Translations under genes and position numbers: made by a program
From: Singulisphaera sp. GP187
GTDB lineage: Bacteria > Planctomycetota > Planctomycetia > Gemmatales > Gemmataceae
Length of the DNA: 64,000 bases
Direction of reading: 5' to 3'
NCBI GenBank assembly: GCA_945905925.1
Contig: CAMDQN010000001.1
Location: 1 to 64,000 of the forward strand
Notes under the pieces: model-generated
Databases searched by the model: none
What the model was told of the DNA's origin: nothing
The model's input: only the letters and a program-made list of their open reading frames with translations
In this document: positions 36,972 through 43,519 of the stretch, in pieces
Numbering within the stretch: position 1 is the first letter of the stretch
Layout of the letters: the number at the start of each line of letters is the position of its first letter

Positions 36972-37793
36972 TCACGGAAGTTGCAACTTCGGTTGCCACA
37001 CGAGTATTTCGCCCTTGCCGGGCACCGCGGCGTCGCCGATGTGGCGCTGGTAACCGCCCGCGATCGCTTCGTGTGGCAGTGCGAACCCGAGTGACGCGAG
37101 GTGCTTCGCGTAGAGGCCCATAAACGACGGGTTGTACACACACGCGGTCGCGAACGTCGGCATCAACTTGAGCGGTTTGAGGCTGATGATGGTGCCGCGT
37201 TGCATCCACGCGCCGGTGCGCTGCTCGGCTCCGCTCATCAGCACGATGGTGCCGCCCTTCATCTGAAGCCCGGCGAAGTCACGAACTGGGCCGCGAACCG
37301 CGATCAAACCGCGCTTCATTCTCATACCGATCTCGATCCCCGCGGAGCCTTCCACGAGGATTGTGCCGCCGCTGATGCCGCTCATGCTACCGCGATACGC
37401 GGACCCGAGTTGCGCGCCCGCGTTACCGCGAACGTGGATGATACCGCCGGACATCTCGCCACCGACCCAGTCGGTCGCGTTACCGGTCACTTCGATGCTT
37501 CCGCCTTTCATGTACGCGCCGACGTGCATTCCCACGTTGCCAACGACGCGAACCCGTCCGCGTGTCATGTTGCGGCCGATCCACTTCACTTTGGTGAGGT
37601 CGCCGCGAATCTCGACGTCGTCGCTCCCCTCCCCTTCCACTGTGAACATCTCATCGAGTCGAAGTTGGCGCTTGCCGAGCATCACGGGCAGGGCGCGAAC
37701 GTCCGCGTGCGGCAGCGGCGCGAGCACGTCAGGCGTGAGGATTTCCGCCTCAAGCGGCACCGTTAGCGATTCTTTGAGCGTGAGTGTGAGCAT
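36972..37793 (-). CDS. fhcC: Formylmethanofuran dehydrogenase subunit C (GXGXG domain)
   Basis: Beta-helix GGEMSGGIIHVRGNAGAQLGSAYRGSMSGISGGTILVEGSAGIEIGMRMKRGLIAVRGP. Confidence 0.92.
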   Translation of the reverse strand: MLTLTLKESLTVPLEAEILTPDVLAPLPHADVRALPVMLGKRQLRLDEMFTVEGEGSDDVEIRGDLTKVKWIGRNMTRGRVRVVGNVGMHVGAYMKGGSIEVTGNATDWVGGEMSGGIIHVRGNAGAQLGSAYRGSMSGISGGTILVEGSAGIEIGMRMKRGLIAVRGPVRDFAGLQMKGGTIVLMSGAEQRTGAWMQRGTIISLKPLKLMPTFATACVYNPSFMGLYAKHLASLGFALPHEAIAGGYQRHIGDAAVPGKGEILVWQPKLQLP

Positions 37794-37794
37794 G

Positions 37795-37862
37795 AGTAGT
37801 AGGCACACTCCTTGTGCCGTGGCTTGTGGGTGAAGAACGGCACACGGAGTGTGCCTACTACT
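37795..37862. repeat. Inverted repeat element, 26-nt arms
   Basis: agtagtaggcacactccttgtgccgt ... acggcacacggagtgtgcctactact, 1 mismatch. Confidence 0.9.
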
Positions 37863-39501
37863 TTGAAACGCACGCGTTGCACGCGTGGACTTCCAGCCCG
37901 TGAACGCACTCTTCGGTTACCGGGTAGTTCTCGAATGACATCGTATAGTGCTGCTGGAACAGCGGGCGAAGATAGTCCTCGATGGCCGGATCGTAATCGG
38001 GCCGCGTCGCGAATTGACTCCCTTCGATGGAGTTCCGAATCTCGCCTTCCTCCACGATCAACTGCCCGGACTTGAAGACGAATCTCGGGTAGGAGAACAT
38101 CTCCATCGGGTCTTTCACGTCGTTGAAGATCGCGATGTCCGCGTCCGCACCGATCCCGAGGTGACCCTTCTGCGCGAGGCCGAGCGTCCGCGCTGGAGCG
38201 GCGGAAGTGATGATCGCGATTTCGCCGAGTGTGTACTCGCGGTCGAGATCTGGGAGCACCATTCCGGCGCGTGCCTTGTCCGAGAACGCCTTCAGTTGCT
38301 CCTTGCGGAACTCCTTGTCCATCAACAGCCGCACGATTTCGGGGTAGCGCCAGAAGCACGCGCCGTTGGGGTGGTCCGTCGTGAGGCACACGCGCCACGG
38401 GTCGGTGATGAGGAGCATCAGTTCGAGGCCGACGGCCCACTGTATCGCGTTGACGAGGTTCTTTTCCTTGTAGGTGTAGGGCACGACGCCGCACCCGGTT
38501 TCGTTCTCAACGTCGAGGTTGCCCCACTTGCGACCCGTCAGTTCGTGGAGCAGGTGCTGCCACGGGCCGTCCGCGGTGATGGTAACCGTGTCGCCGAACA
38601 GCACCGCACCCGCGTCACAAGTTAAGTTCGGGTGCGTGTTGAAGTACTCCGCGATCGGCACAGCCGCGGACTTCATGGTGTACCAGTCGTCGCCGCCGTA
38701 GGCGTGGTACTGGAGATGCGCCATGTGGGCGCGGTTGCCCTCCAACAGCTTCATCGTTTCGAGCGTGGTGGTGTAGTTGCCCGGTGCGCCGAGGTTGTTG
38801 CAGTGAAGGTGAATCGGGTGCGGCAGGCTCAGTTGGTCCGCGATGTCGGCGAGCGCCTTGATGATCGTCGCGGGCGTGACCTTCTTGTAACCGGGCACGA
38901 CGTCGTTGAGGCCCTTGCAGTCTTTGCCCCACTTCCACCCCGCGACGCCACCGGGGTTCACGGCCTTGATGCCGTAAGCTTTCGCGGCCCACACCTGCCA
39001 CCCCGCGACCTGCTTCGCGCGCTCGAACTCGTCGTTTTCGAGCAGGTCGAGAATGATCTCGTTGTTCGCCATCAGCACGCAACAGCATTTGTCGATGATG
39101 GGTGTGTCGCGAAGTTCCTCGTGTGTGTGCTTGGCGGAGATGAGCGGCACGGCGGCTTCGTTCGCGGTGGTCCAGCCCATGCCCGCGTAGACGTAGCCCG
39201 TGGCGAACGTGGTGGGCGTGCTGCCCGCGATCCCCGCCCGGCACTGCGGCGTATGAAAGATCGGCCGCGCCTTGCGGTGCTGTTCGGGGATGAGTCCGCG
39301 AGCGAAGTTGAGCGCCGCGCCGCCGATGTGCGTGTGAACATCGACGCCACCGGGGAACACGATCATGCCGCGCGCGTCGATGACGCGCGCGCTGGCGTCC
39401 ACACTGGCGACGACCTTCCCGCCGGCGACGCAGACGTCTTGCACGACGCCATCGACGCCGTTCTTGGGGTCGTAAACTTTCCCGCCCGTGATCCGAAGCA
39501 T
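37858..39501 (-). CDS. fhcA: Formylmethanofuran dehydrogenase subunit A (amidohydrolase)
   Basis: MLRITGGKVYDPKNGVDGVVQDVCV...FPGGVDVHTHIGGAALNFARGLIPEQH; HPIHLHCNNLGAPGNYTTTLET; LTTDHPNGACFWRYPEI. Confidence 0.95.
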   Translation of the reverse strand: MLRITGGKVYDPKNGVDGVVQDVCVAGGKVVASVDASARVIDARGMIVFPGGVDVHTHIGGAALNFARGLIPEQHRKARPIFHTPQCRAGIAGSTPTTFATGYVYAGMGWTTANEAAVPLISAKHTHEELRDTPIIDKCCCVLMANNEIILDLLENDEFERAKQVAGWQVWAAKAYGIKAVNPGGVAGWKWGKDCKGLNDVVPGYKKVTPATIIKALADIADQLSLPHPIHLHCNNLGAPGNYTTTLETMKLLEGNRAHMAHLQYHAYGGDDWYTMKSAAVPIAEYFNTHPNLTCDAGAVLFGDTVTITADGPWQHLLHELTGRKWGNLDVENETGCGVVPYTYKEKNLVNAIQWAVGLELMLLITDPWRVCLTTDHPNGACFWRYPEIVRLLMDKEFRKEQLKAFSDKARAGMVLPDLDREYTLGEIAIITSAAPARTLGLAQKGHLGIGADADIAIFNDVKDPMEMFSYPRFVFKSGQLIVEEGEIRNSIEGSQFATRPDYDPAIEDYLRPLFQQHYTMSFENYPVTEECVHGLEVHACNACVSK

Positions 39502-40406
39502 TATTTCGTTCCCTGTCCGCAAATGATCTCGTTGTGGTAACGGACGTATTCTTCGTTGATTGAATGCCCGGCAACGAGCGTGAGGTCTTCGGCTGACAGA
39601 GTGCGCGCCCCGTAATCCAATTCGGCGTGATGATTCGGACAGACGCAGACGATATTGTCCTTCGTGTCGAAGCCCTTATGAGGGTTACCGAGAGGGCGCA
39701 TGTGATGAGCTTCAGCGTAGGACGAACCGTCGGGTAGTTTGATCGTGTGCTTGCAAATCTGACACTTGTAATTGTGGAGCGCCTTGACTTGCTTCGCCAA
39801 CTTTGTGTCTCGAAGGATCCGATATGCCGTCGATTTGTAGCGCGGCGGTGGTTGGGGGAGATCGCTGGCTTTCGGCGTGGTTGGAATCGCCCCTGTCTCG
39901 CCGTTGATTCTCTGGAGCGCATACCTCGCCGCACTCGGTGTACAGGAGGTGCCCTTATACTGCGCGAGCGTCGTCAGCTTTTTCGAGAGGTACGTCTGCT
40001 GTAAAGGATTGCCATTCACGTCATTGCTGTCCCACCCACCGACGACGTTGCGATACACTCCGTCATCCTTCCCCGAATATTTCTGCGGTTTGAACTTCGG
40101 ATCGAGAAAGCACCAGTGAAGTCTTCCTCCATGAAACGTGATCCAAAGCGTTGATCCGTCGTCTTCAAAAAAATGGCGCACTTCGTTGCGAGATCGGGAC
40201 GCCTCCCTCTCTGAATAGTCATCATCGAGGAAGCTTTGCCGCAGCTTGTCCCACTGTCCGTTGCAGCAGGCCGTGAAACGTGAAACGCGCGCGGTTCCGA
40301 ATCCAAGACGGATGATCCCGTTCGTTAAGCACTCAGGTTCCCATTCGCCGCCCGTACCGAGTTTGATGTACCGGACGATGCTCTTTGGGTTAATTGTTTT
40401 GGGCAT
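39501..40406 (-). CDS. HNH endonuclease
   Basis: CQICKHTIKLPDGSSYAEAHHMRPLGNPHKGFDTKDNIVCVCPNHHAELDYGAR; stop overlaps fhcA start (TAATG). Confidence 0.85.
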   Translation of the reverse strand: MPKTINPKSIVRYIKLGTGGEWEPECLTNGIIRLGFGTARVSRFTACCNGQWDKLRQSFLDDDYSEREASRSRNEVRHFFEDDGSTLWITFHGGRLHWCFLDPKFKPQKYSGKDDGVYRNVVGGWDSNDVNGNPLQQTYLSKKLTTLAQYKGTSCTPSAARYALQRINGETGAIPTTPKASDLPQPPPRYKSTAYRILRDTKLAKQVKALHNYKCQICKHTIKLPDGSSYAEAHHMRPLGNPHKGFDTKDNIVCVCPNHHAELDYGARTLSAEDLTLVAGHSINEEYVRYHNEIICGQGTK

Positions 40407-40454: not shown

Positions 40455-41819
40455 CTACGTAACCTGTGCCCCGGTTCGCGTGACGGGGTACCACGCGGGT
40501 TTCTTCTGCACGGCCGCGACGATCTTCTTCATCACCTCTTCGTCACTCGGGTACGGCGACTTCAGCGGCGGGCGTAGCGGCATCGGCACTTCGTCCATCC
40601 GGTACGCGGTGCCCGGCGCACTGATGCCCGCGACCGATGTCGTGATGTGAACCCGAGCCAACCGACTCGTGTGCGTTACCTTCGGGTCGAGCACGATCGT
40701 TGGCGTCCGCGTCAAATGCTCGATCGCGGGCTTCGGCATCGTCGCGCCGGGGTCGGCGCCGAGAACAAGTGTCGCGTCGTTGTCGCCGCGAACCAGGAGG
40801 TCGATGGTCGAGTATTCGCCCGGGTTGAAGCGCGGGTAGCCGCGCGTGAGGCTGATTCCGAACGGGTAAGAGAACGTGTACCGCATCACCACGTCGGCAC
40901 CGGTCACGTTCCCGTGACCGCGCATCGGCATCGCGACGAACTTCGTGTACGCGTTTAACTCCGCCGCGAGGATGAGGGCCGCGGCACTGTTCATGTGCTT
41001 GCCCCGCGTCATGGACAGACCCATGCCGAAGAACAACACGCCGAACTTCGCGGCCTTCATCCGGTTCACGAGGTCTTGGAGTTGCTCCAACGTGAGACCG
41101 GTTTCGGCGGCGGCTTCGGCGCTTACCGTCTGGCCCTTCACCAGCGCGCGGAGAATGGTGAGCATCTCGAAGTCTTTGCCCGGGCGCACCTGAAGGAAGA
41201 TGTCCGCGGCCTTCGCGCTCATCGTTTCGCGGATGTCAACGAGCACCATCGTGCGGTCTTTGCGACCACGCGGCAGGAACTTCCCCTTCTGCGTGAGGGT
41301 GTATCGCGTGAAATGCCGCGGGTGGCACTCGGCCGGGTTGCCGCCCCAGTAGATGATGAAGTCGGCCCGGTTCTTCACTTCGCCCAACGTACAGGTCACC
41401 TTACCGCCCAACTGGGCGGCTATTTCAGTGGGACCGTGTCAGAGGGATGTGTGACTGTCGATCACGCCGCCGACCAACTCCGCGAGCCACACGGCTTCGC
41501 GCTGGGCTTCGCAGGTGGTGTTGCTCAAGCCGTAGATCAGCGGCATGTTCGCTTTGTGAAGGAACTCCGCCGCCGCTTCGACCGCTTCGTCAACGGTGGC
41601 TTCCTTGCCGTCGATGAGTGCGTCGGGGTAGAGACGTTCTGCGGTGTGGTTCTTGAACCACGCTTCGCCGAGGATGCACGCGCGCTTGGTTTCGACGATG
41701 CGCGTGGCGTCGGCGTGTAACTCGATGTCGTCGCACACGCACCCGCAGAACGTGCAGGTCGCGTTCTTCACGATCTTGAGCGCGTGTTTCACAGGCTCGG
41801 TTGCTGTTGCGATCGTCAT
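40455..41819 (-). CDS. fwdB: Formylmethanofuran dehydrogenase subunit B, predicted selenoprotein (TGA at 41441..41439 read as Sec)
   Basis: N-half CTFCGCVCDDIELHAD...VWLAELVGGVIDSHTSL, then TGA, then same-frame HGPTEIAAQLGGKVTCTLGEVKNRADFIIYWGGNPAECHPRHFTRY. UHGP/CHGP is the catalytic Cys/Sec motif of FwdB/FmdB and formate dehydrogenases. Confidence 0.85.
41394..41435 (-). promoter_or_regulatory. Candidate bacterial SECIS stem-loop downstream of the fwdB TGA
   Basis: UGA CAC GGUC(CC)ACU GAAAUA GCCGCCC-AGUU-GGGCGGU AA GGUGACC: 7-bp apical stem (6 WC plus 1 GU), tetraloop AGUU 26-29 nt after UGA, lower stem GGUC/GACC plus ACU/GGU with a CC bulge. Confidence 0.65.
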
Positions 41820-41842: not shown

Positions 41843-42052
41843 TTACTGCGGCTTCGGTTCAGACTGCGAACCGCCCGAACTGGGCGGTGGGGCGAGGAAT
41901 GCTCAGCCGAGCGCGCGCCCACGGAAACTTCCGCGGATGCGTCGCGGCATGAACCGTCCAGGCTCGATCTCTTCCCACGGCGATTCCGTGGTGTCGAGAG
42001 GATGCGAAGCGGCCTGCTCTTGCGCGTCGGTCGGTTTGTCGTTGGTGTTCAT
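41843..42052 (-). CDS. Small basic ORF between fwdD and fwdB; 49 aa to TGA at 41905..41903, or 69 aa if TGA is read through
   Basis: MNTNDKPTDAQEQAASHPLDTTESPWEEIEPGRFMPRRIRGSFRGRALG-TGA-AFLAPPPSSGGSQSEPKPQ-TAA; absent from the supplied ORF track. Confidence 0.5.
41870..41888 (-). promoter_or_regulatory. Second SECIS-like stem-loop after the small-ORF TGA
   Basis: ACCGCCC-AGUUC-GGGCGGU, perfect 7-bp stem, loop 22-26 nt after UGA; almost identical to the fwdB apical stem GCCGCCC-AGUU-GGGCGGU. Confidence 0.45.
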
Positions 42053-42074: not shown

Positions 42075-42151
42075 CCAACCCCTCCCTAAGAAGGAAGGTG
42101 GAGCCGGAGTTTGAAGTCCCCCCCTTAGGGGAGGAGTTGGGGAGGGGTTGG
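42075..42151. repeat. Inverted repeat element overlapping the 3' end of fwdD
   Basis: ccaacccctccc ... gggaggggttgg. Confidence 0.75.
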
Positions 42152-42478
42152 TTCCACCACTTCCACTTCCACGTCCCAGCCCTTCGAGGTCGGCATCCCG
42201 GTGCCGTCTGTGTCGCCGCCCATGAGCTGGCACGTCGGCGGACCGTAGGGCACGAACAACATCCCACGCGGCACGTTCGCTTCCTTGCACTGGAACTCCG
42301 CTTCACCGATCTCCGTTCGCACGCGAATCGTCGCGCCGCTCACGACTCCGAGTTCCATCATGTCTTCCGGGTGCATCGTCATCGTGCTTACGATGGTCTT
42401 GTACTCGTCGCCGTCCTTGCCGACGTTGATCTGAACACCTTGCTTGTTGGTACGAATCGGCATTAACAGGAAGTGCAT
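42125..42478 (-). CDS. fwdD: Molybdopterin dinucleotide-binding subunit, FwdD/FmdD-like
   Basis: HPEDMMELGVVSGATIRVRTEIGEAEFQCKEANVPRGMLFVPYGPPTCQLMGGDTDGTGMPTSKGWDVEVE. Confidence 0.8.
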   Translation of the reverse strand: MHFLLMPIRTNKQGVQINVGKDGDEYKTIVSTMTMHPEDMMELGVVSGATIRVRTEIGEAEFQCKEANVPRGMLFVPYGPPTCQLMGGDTDGTGMPTSKGWDVEVEVVEPTPPQLLP

Positions 42479-42586
42479 GACCGGCATCAAAAGTTCTCGC
42501 AGGGCGGGAACAGCCATATTATCGGTTGCGGCGTACGCGGCAAACGAATACACGATTCACTATTCCCACGCCGGAGAGAACCCGCC

Positions 42587-43519
42587 TTGCTAACCCTCAA
42601 CGCCGTCGAAATCCAAGACACGTTCGCCGAAGCGTTCCCGATGACCGCCGCGCGCGTGCTGGTCACCGCGGAGACGATCGGTTGGGCACGCACCGCCGGA
42701 CAAAGCGCCACCGGGTACGCGGCGAGCGTCATCGGCTGCGACGCAGAAGCCGGTATCGAGCGCGAACTTTCGCCTGACGAAACCCCCGACGGGCGCCCCG
42801 GCGTGTCGCTGCTGTTCTTCGGTTTCAGTCGCGACGCGCTTCAAAAGGCAATCGCGAATCGCGTGGCAAACTGCGTGCTAACGTGCGCGACGACCGCGTG
42901 TTTCAACGGCTTGGCCGGCGATCCGGGAAAGACGATTCGCGTCGGCGGCGTGCTGCGATACTTTGGCGATGGCTGGCAGATTAGTAAGCTCCTCGACGGC
43001 AAACGCTACTGGCGCATGCCGACGATGGACGGCGAGTTCCTCTGCGAAGACACGTTCGGCACGGTGAAGGGCGTCGGCGGCGGGAACTTCCTCATCCTCG
43101 GCGAAACGCAATCACAAACGCTCGCGGCAGCGGAAGCGGCAGTCACCGCGATCCGGCGACTTCCCGGCGTGATACTGCCGTTCCCCGGCGGCGTGGTCCG
43201 CAGCGGAAGCAAAGTGGGCAGCAAGTACAAGGGGCTGAAGGCGAGCACCAACGACGCGTACTGCCCGACGCTTCGCGGGGTGGTGAAGTCCGCACTCCCA
43301 GCAGGCGTGAACGCGGTGTACGAACTCGTTTTCGATGGCCTCGACTTGGCGACAGTGGAACGCGCGACCTGGGAAGGAATGCTCGCCGCGACAAGATGCC
43401 CCGGCGTGACACAGATCACCGCAGGCAACTACGGCGGCAAACTCGGCCCGCACCACATCCACCTCGCGAAGCTCATTCAGGGCGCAAATTCATCGACAGA
43501 CGGTTCGCGAGTCGGATAA
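42587..43519 (+). CDS. ftr: Formylmethanofuran--tetrahydromethanopterin N-formyltransferase
   Basis: IQDTFAEAFPMTAARVLVTA, TACFNGLAGD, GGGNFLILG, RCPGVTQITAGNYGGKLGPHHIHL; TTG start assumed. Confidence 0.92.
   Translation: MLTLNAVEIQDTFAEAFPMTAARVLVTAETIGWARTAGQSATGYAASVIGCDAEAGIERELSPDETPDGRPGVSLLFFGFSRDALQKAIANRVANCVLTCATTACFNGLAGDPGKTIRVGGVLRYFGDGWQISKLLDGKRYWRMPTMDGEFLCEDTFGTVKGVGGGNFLILGETQSQTLAAAEAAVTAIRRLPGVILPFPGGVVRSGSKVGSKYKGLKASTNDAYCPTLRGVVKSALPAGVNAVYELVFDGLDLATVERATWEGMLAATRCPGVTQITAGNYGGKLGPHHIHLAKLIQGANSSTDGSRVG

Follow-up and report, generated by a model that had tools for sequence, protein, structure and literature searches.

Introduction

In archaeal FwdB, the B subunit of formylmethanofuran dehydrogenase, the column of Cys118 holds the tungsten ligand, and the histidine after this ligand and the arginine of the PMRGH motif are active-site residues. 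Bacterial SECIS elements, which direct the insertion of selenocysteine (Sec), form a hairpin shortly after the UGA and carry a G in the first loop positions. FwdB, with its UHxP motif, is listed among verified selenoproteins (PMC13188914), and in the bacterial complex that has been characterised FhcB contains no Mo or W and acts as a scaffold (PMC10100899). For planctomycetes, a 2016 report presents fmdB of planctomycete P2 as a selenoprotein gene in the operon fmdD-fmdB-fmdA-fmdC, together with Gly FmdB homologues in three planctomycetes, including Gemmata obscuriglobus, and the genes for Sec insertion in G. obscuriglobus and I. pallida (PMC4807772). Additionally, fwdD has been stated to be absent from Planctomycetes (PMC5020050).

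Here an operon of this kind is described from a planctomycete window, meaning the whole stretch of 64,000 nucleotides that was analysed (Table 1). The initial annotation of this DNA had proposed a genuine, potentially redox-active Sec-FwdB; the genuine Sec-FwdB holds, as a member of a kind that was already described in PMC4807772 and is not a first, and the redox activity stays a proposal, with no FwdF above cut-off. What is new is the stronger sequence evidence for recoding, the distribution across a whole clade, the correlation with FwdD and a linked small gene.

Table 1. Features of the fwd locus, with positions counted from the first letter of the window
Feature	Position	Strand	Evidence or remark
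fwdC, GXGXG subunit	36972..37808	-	TIGR03122 259 bits
fwdA, amidohydrolase subunit	37858..39501	-	TIGR03121 691 bits; aligns to 5t5i_A
HNH-domain gene between fwdB and fwdA	39501..40406	-	Pfam HNH_2, just below cut-off
fwdB, formylmethanofuran dehydrogenase subunit B, 454 aa with predicted Sec127	40455..41819	-	TIGR03129 498 bits; full-length alignment to 5t5i_B, 8rja_B, 9sfi_Q
SECIS hairpin (predicted), stem GCCGCCC/GGGCGGT, apical loop AGUU	41403..41420	-	loop about 25 nt after TGA
in-frame TGA read as selenocysteine, residue 127	41439..41441	-	equivalent to Cys118 of 5t5i_B
small ORF, 49 aa (MNTNDKPTDAQEQAASHPLDTTESPWEEIEPGRFMPRRIRGSFRGRALG), between fwdD and fwdB	41903..42052	-	only with Sec-fwdB
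fwdD, molybdopterin-dinucleotide-binding subunit	42125..42553	-	NF042908 73 bits; Pfam Molydop_binding 39 bits; longest frame, true start probably nearer 42475
ftr/fhcD, formylmethanofuran:H4MPT formyltransferase, divergent neighbour	42473..43519	+	TIGR03119 452 bits; longest frame, true start probably downstream

The fwdB frame and its in-frame TGA

As the initial annotation described, two abutting open reading frames lie in one frame and are parted only by a TGA. Readthrough translation gives 454 residues in which this TGA is the single odd codon, with TAG as the terminator, and the product matches TIGR03129 from end to end, above the cut-off of 327.8 bits. In gap-free alignments residue 127 falls on Cys118 of the tungsten enzyme 5t5i_B, which bears out the proposal that the TGA stands at the metal-ligand Cys/Sec column, and on the X within SVXHGP of 9sfi_Q, which is presumably Sec. 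Aligned to 5t5i_B, the frame also keeps the Sec127-His128 pair, the Arg of PMRGH and the four cysteines of the 4Fe-4S motif (CTFCGCVC and RAC).

The same codon recurs widely. The best FwdB match contains one TGA in 62 of the 298 genomes of the class, and its position is codon 127 in every class locus that was read; a second genome collection overlaps the first in part, with many MAGs common to both, and all of its 80 nearest loci have the TGA at this codon. Identity of the TGA-type proteins to that of the window is 73-98%, before as well as after the codon, and they have IDSHTSLUHGPTE or close variants of it. With the same TGA at the same codon in 62 genomes and 80 loci, neither chance nor sequencing error accounts for it.

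The SECIS hairpin and the selenocysteine machinery

The UGA is followed by 19 bases and then by CCGCCC-AGUU-GGGCGG, with a seventh pair below, and the UGA with the next 48 nt folds with a minimum free energy of -21 kcal/mol (z -2.38). The AGUU loop, with its G early in the loop of a hairpin close downstream, has the bacterial form and is invariant in 62/62 and 80/80 loci of the two partly overlapping sets. All six inner pairs are formed in 61 of 62 loci; where the stem varies, G-C has mostly become G-U, and a double change from C-G to U-A occurs at one locus (L097). Leucine in the loop is encoded by TTG in every case, although TTG makes up only 17% of the Leu codons in these genes. Three sister copies without Sec encode the same AAQLGGK peptide with CTC (L051), CTT (L057) and CTC (L198), and these natural variants are the best control for a constraint on TTG in the loop. 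Judged by fold, loop and conservation, the hairpin is a bacterial-type SECIS.

The initial annotation had pointed to selA, selB, selC (tRNA-Sec) and selD as the genes to look for, and all four are present in the host genome of the window (6.47 Mb, 96.6% complete): a tRNA-Sec with anticodon UCA, SelA (555.6 bits), SelB (365 bits, pieces joined) and SelD (387 bits). A further sequence (L002, G000:C5:83745-83849) lies above the Rfam tRNA-Sec cut-off with 49.8 bits and is possibly a tRNA-like remnant; ARAGORN calls no tRNA there, and it was set aside as a second SelC.

The host genome encodes a second selenoprotein, the formate dehydrogenase alpha subunit FdhA (669.9 bits, above the cut-off), with a TGA in NRTUHAPS; NuoEF-like genes come after this Sec fdhA, and an fdhD-like frame, identified by eye, lies beside it on the other strand. 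At L111 (G000:C142, 4592-9372) the Sec formate dehydrogenase is split, such that the catalytic part is without the N-terminal 4Fe-4S segment (TIGR01591 positions 1-50), and this segment is found at the end of the downstream NuoG-like protein.

Across the class, SelB scores above the cut-off in all 62 TGA-FwdB genomes against 151 of 298 overall (hypergeometric 2e-22) and against 15 of 29 Cys-FwdB genomes, the last count read by hand from tables (Fisher 7e-9); since the 62 genomes are related, both P values overstate the independent evidence.

Two other readings of the TGA have to be weighed against recoding. An assembly or sequencing error, a pseudogene, or two proteins made by termination and re-initiation would agree with the two frames that ORF callers report, a split that the initial annotation had foreseen, but the same TGA stands in the 142 loci of the two partly overlapping sets between conserved flanks, the loop codon is invariant and the downstream frame could start only at a TTG within the SECIS region; such readings were rejected on these grounds and are left with a very slight probability. 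Slighter still is that of a genome-wide reassignment of TGA, for example to Trp or Gly, which an in-frame TGA in a conserved gene might suggest: within the window TGA is the ordinary terminator of EF-Tu, FwdC and the small ORF, a tRNA-Sec (UCA) is present and the aligned residue in relatives is Cys, and the normal use of TGA as a stop contradicts this reading. Taken on conservation and context, the TGA of fwdB is a real selenocysteine codon.

Distribution and phylogeny of FwdB copies

Comparison with orthologues, which the initial annotation had suggested as a check, showed TGA or Cys at the Sec column. A second FwdB clade, 53-61% identical, carries TGC or TGT in DTTTSVCHGPSG, and further FwdB copies have Gly, Thr, Ser or other residues at this column, among them the Gly copies of large isolate-like genomes of the same genus. 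The degenerate copies with Gly, Thr or Ser retain the 4Fe-4S motif, and the motif is therefore not diagnostic of redox activity; of the initial claim about these cysteines, their retention was observed, and their value as a sign of redox activity was lost.

A tree of 120 rows places all TGA copies in a single clade (support 98) with no Sec loss inside it. Its nearest outgroups are the Thr copies, the Ser copy and one Cys copy; of these, the Thr copies and this Cys copy stand in tandem with a Sec gene. Several rows have long branches, which leaves the deep joins unsure.

Several single loci differ in their arrangement. Tandem fwdB genes occur with a Thr copy ahead of the Sec copy (L051 and L057, in G191 and G130) and with a Cys copy after it (L072, in G146), in each case an apparent duplication followed by Sec loss. 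A single-contig relative from a sister lineage (L198, G185) has a Ser copy (TCG) as its only FwdB. Sec-FwdB is also found on contigs of MAGs labelled Acidobacteria (L142, L155, L173, L174), nested in the planctomycete clade, which would reflect either gene transfer or misbinning.

The operon and its subunits

The genes are arranged in the order fwdD - small ORF - fwdB - (HNH gene) - fwdA - fwdC, with ftr divergent. FwdA, FwdC and FwdD complete the subunit set of formylmethanofuran dehydrogenase around FwdB, the metal-site regions of FwdA are kept relative to 5t5i_A, and Mch is present elsewhere in the host genome. The HNH gene is lineage-specific and probably lies outside the enzyme; elsewhere only a broken copy was found (L054/L115, G138), which suggests that it is probably a recent selfish insertion.

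The gene fwdD lies upstream of fwdB at 135 of 141 Sec loci (contig ends account for at least part of the other six), at 24 of 29 Cys loci and at none of 27 degenerate (Gly/Thr/Ser) loci, where a flank of only 1.5 kb was covered for each and some entries are the same gene fetched twice. Given the present operon, the stated absence of fwdD (PMC5020050) is not true of the Sec and Cys types. As a marker of redox-type FwdB, FwdD discriminates better than retention of the 4Fe-4S motif.

A small ORF linked to Sec-fwdB

The small ORF between fwdD and fwdB ranges from 42 to 54 aa across its members; the N-terminus varies, and conservation lies at the end, which reads W-E-E-I-x-x-G-R-F-M-P-R-R-x-R-G-S-x-x-G-R-A-L-G-stop. 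Mean entropy is 1.34 at third codon positions against 0.38 at first and second positions, as expected of a coding gene. A profile built from 14 members finds matches in exactly 62 of 62 Sec-FwdB genomes and in none of the 236 others of the class, with the next best matches at E ~1e-3. Outside the class, five more genomes of the same phylum carry it, and FwdB is of the TGA type in all four whose contig reaches fwdB. At the G185 locus, with only the Ser copy of FwdB, both the small ORF and fwdD are missing.

Searches of Pfam, NCBIfam and PDB returned no relatives of the small ORF, a single-chain prediction gave an uninformative short beta hairpin (mean pLDDT 65.5), and no such small protein was found in a literature search of open-licence papers; the gene is apparently undescribed. 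The likeliest role of its product would be that of a dedicated part of the planctomycete Sec-type Fwd, as a small subunit or an assembly factor needed only with Sec-FwdB, to which we give about an even chance. As all Sec copies belong to one clade, much of the link between the small ORF and Sec is accounted for by descent together with the operon.

Dehydrogenase or scaffold

It is very probable that this FwdB is a bacterial selenoprotein, made full-length, that works within a real formylmethanofuran (or methylofuran) dehydrogenase. What the sequence itself shows is the signal for recoding, the Sec machinery, the conserved site and the set of subunits; the metal, chemistry, direction and electron acceptor proposed on this basis stay conditional. 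The hairpin about 25 nt downstream would direct SelB and Sec-tRNA to decode UGA 127, which would yield full-length FwdB. In this protein Sec127 would ligate Mo or W, in a bis-pyranopterin site that FwdB and FwdD share and that lies next to the 4Fe-4S cluster. With FwdA, the amidohydrolase, and FwdC, the protein would form the formylmethanofuran (or methylofuran) dehydrogenase, where FwdA would hydrolyse the formyl carrier to formate and FwdB would oxidise formate to CO2, or the reverse. The complex would be the last step of the H4MPT route, into which Ftr and Mch feed.

Alternatively, Sec-FwdB may be made and yet serve mainly as a scaffold in an Fhc-like complex that carries out formyl transfer and hydrolysis to formate, while a separate NAD-linked formate dehydrogenase performs the oxidation. 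The known FhcB is such a scaffold (PMC10100899), the Sec FdhA with NuoEF-like partners could supply the oxidation, and no FwdF was found above the cut-off in the 96.6% complete genome (best 43.6 bits, cut-off 375). The missing FwdF also weighs against the dehydrogenase reading, as does the finding that no ferredoxin or polyferredoxin gene is conserved beside the operon in relatives. The scaffold reading is nevertheless rather unlikely, as Sec and SECIS are kept without exception across the clade, whereas FwdB copies outside the Sec clade do lack Sec. FwdD also accompanies the Sec and Cys copies and never the degenerate ones, which favours a true Mo/W formylmethanofuran dehydrogenase for the Sec form; where FhcB is without a Mo/W ligand and without FwdD, this locus has both a Sec ligand and fwdD.

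The known bacterial Fhc makes formate. Planctomycetes have scaffold-like copies as well as full Sec copies, which in some cases stand in tandem and occur together even in a single genus. With both copy types at hand, a true CO2-forming (or CO2-fixing) formylmethanofuran dehydrogenase in bacteria outside methanogenesis becomes testable, as does the origin of the scaffold form, and the linked small protein offers a concrete new target. Where TGA is treated as a stop, gene prediction would overlook the key subunit in roughly one in five of the genomes sampled from the class.

Comparison with known systems

The closest described systems are the Sec-FmdB of P2 (Rhodopirellula) and of a Lake Washington fosmid, which share with the present locus the active-site UGA, the operon fmdD-fmdB-fmdA-fmdC and the Sec machinery (PMC4807772). 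Unlike those, the operon described here lies in a Gemmataceae-type genome and has an HNH gene that parts fwdB from fwdA; the accessible text of PMC4807772 carries no mention of a small ORF between fwdD and fwdB.

The archaeal FwdB/FwuB proteins (5t5i_B, 9sfi_Q and the Sec form of Methanopyrus kandleri) agree with the planctomycete protein in the Sec/Cys column, the 4Fe-4S cysteines and the FwdA and FwdD partners, and differ in that FwdF was not detected in the host genome and that the SECIS, of bacterial type, comes shortly after the UGA. With bacterial FhcABCD the operon shares homologous A, B and C subunits and an adjoining Ftr/FhcD, whereas FhcB is without Mo/W (PMC10100899) and the degenerate planctomycete copies are without Sec/Cys and fwdD. 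Finally, the bacterial Sec formate dehydrogenase FdhA resembles Sec-FwdB in its UHxP motif and its SelB-dependent recoding, and differs in being a separate enzyme linked to NuoEF-like subunits.
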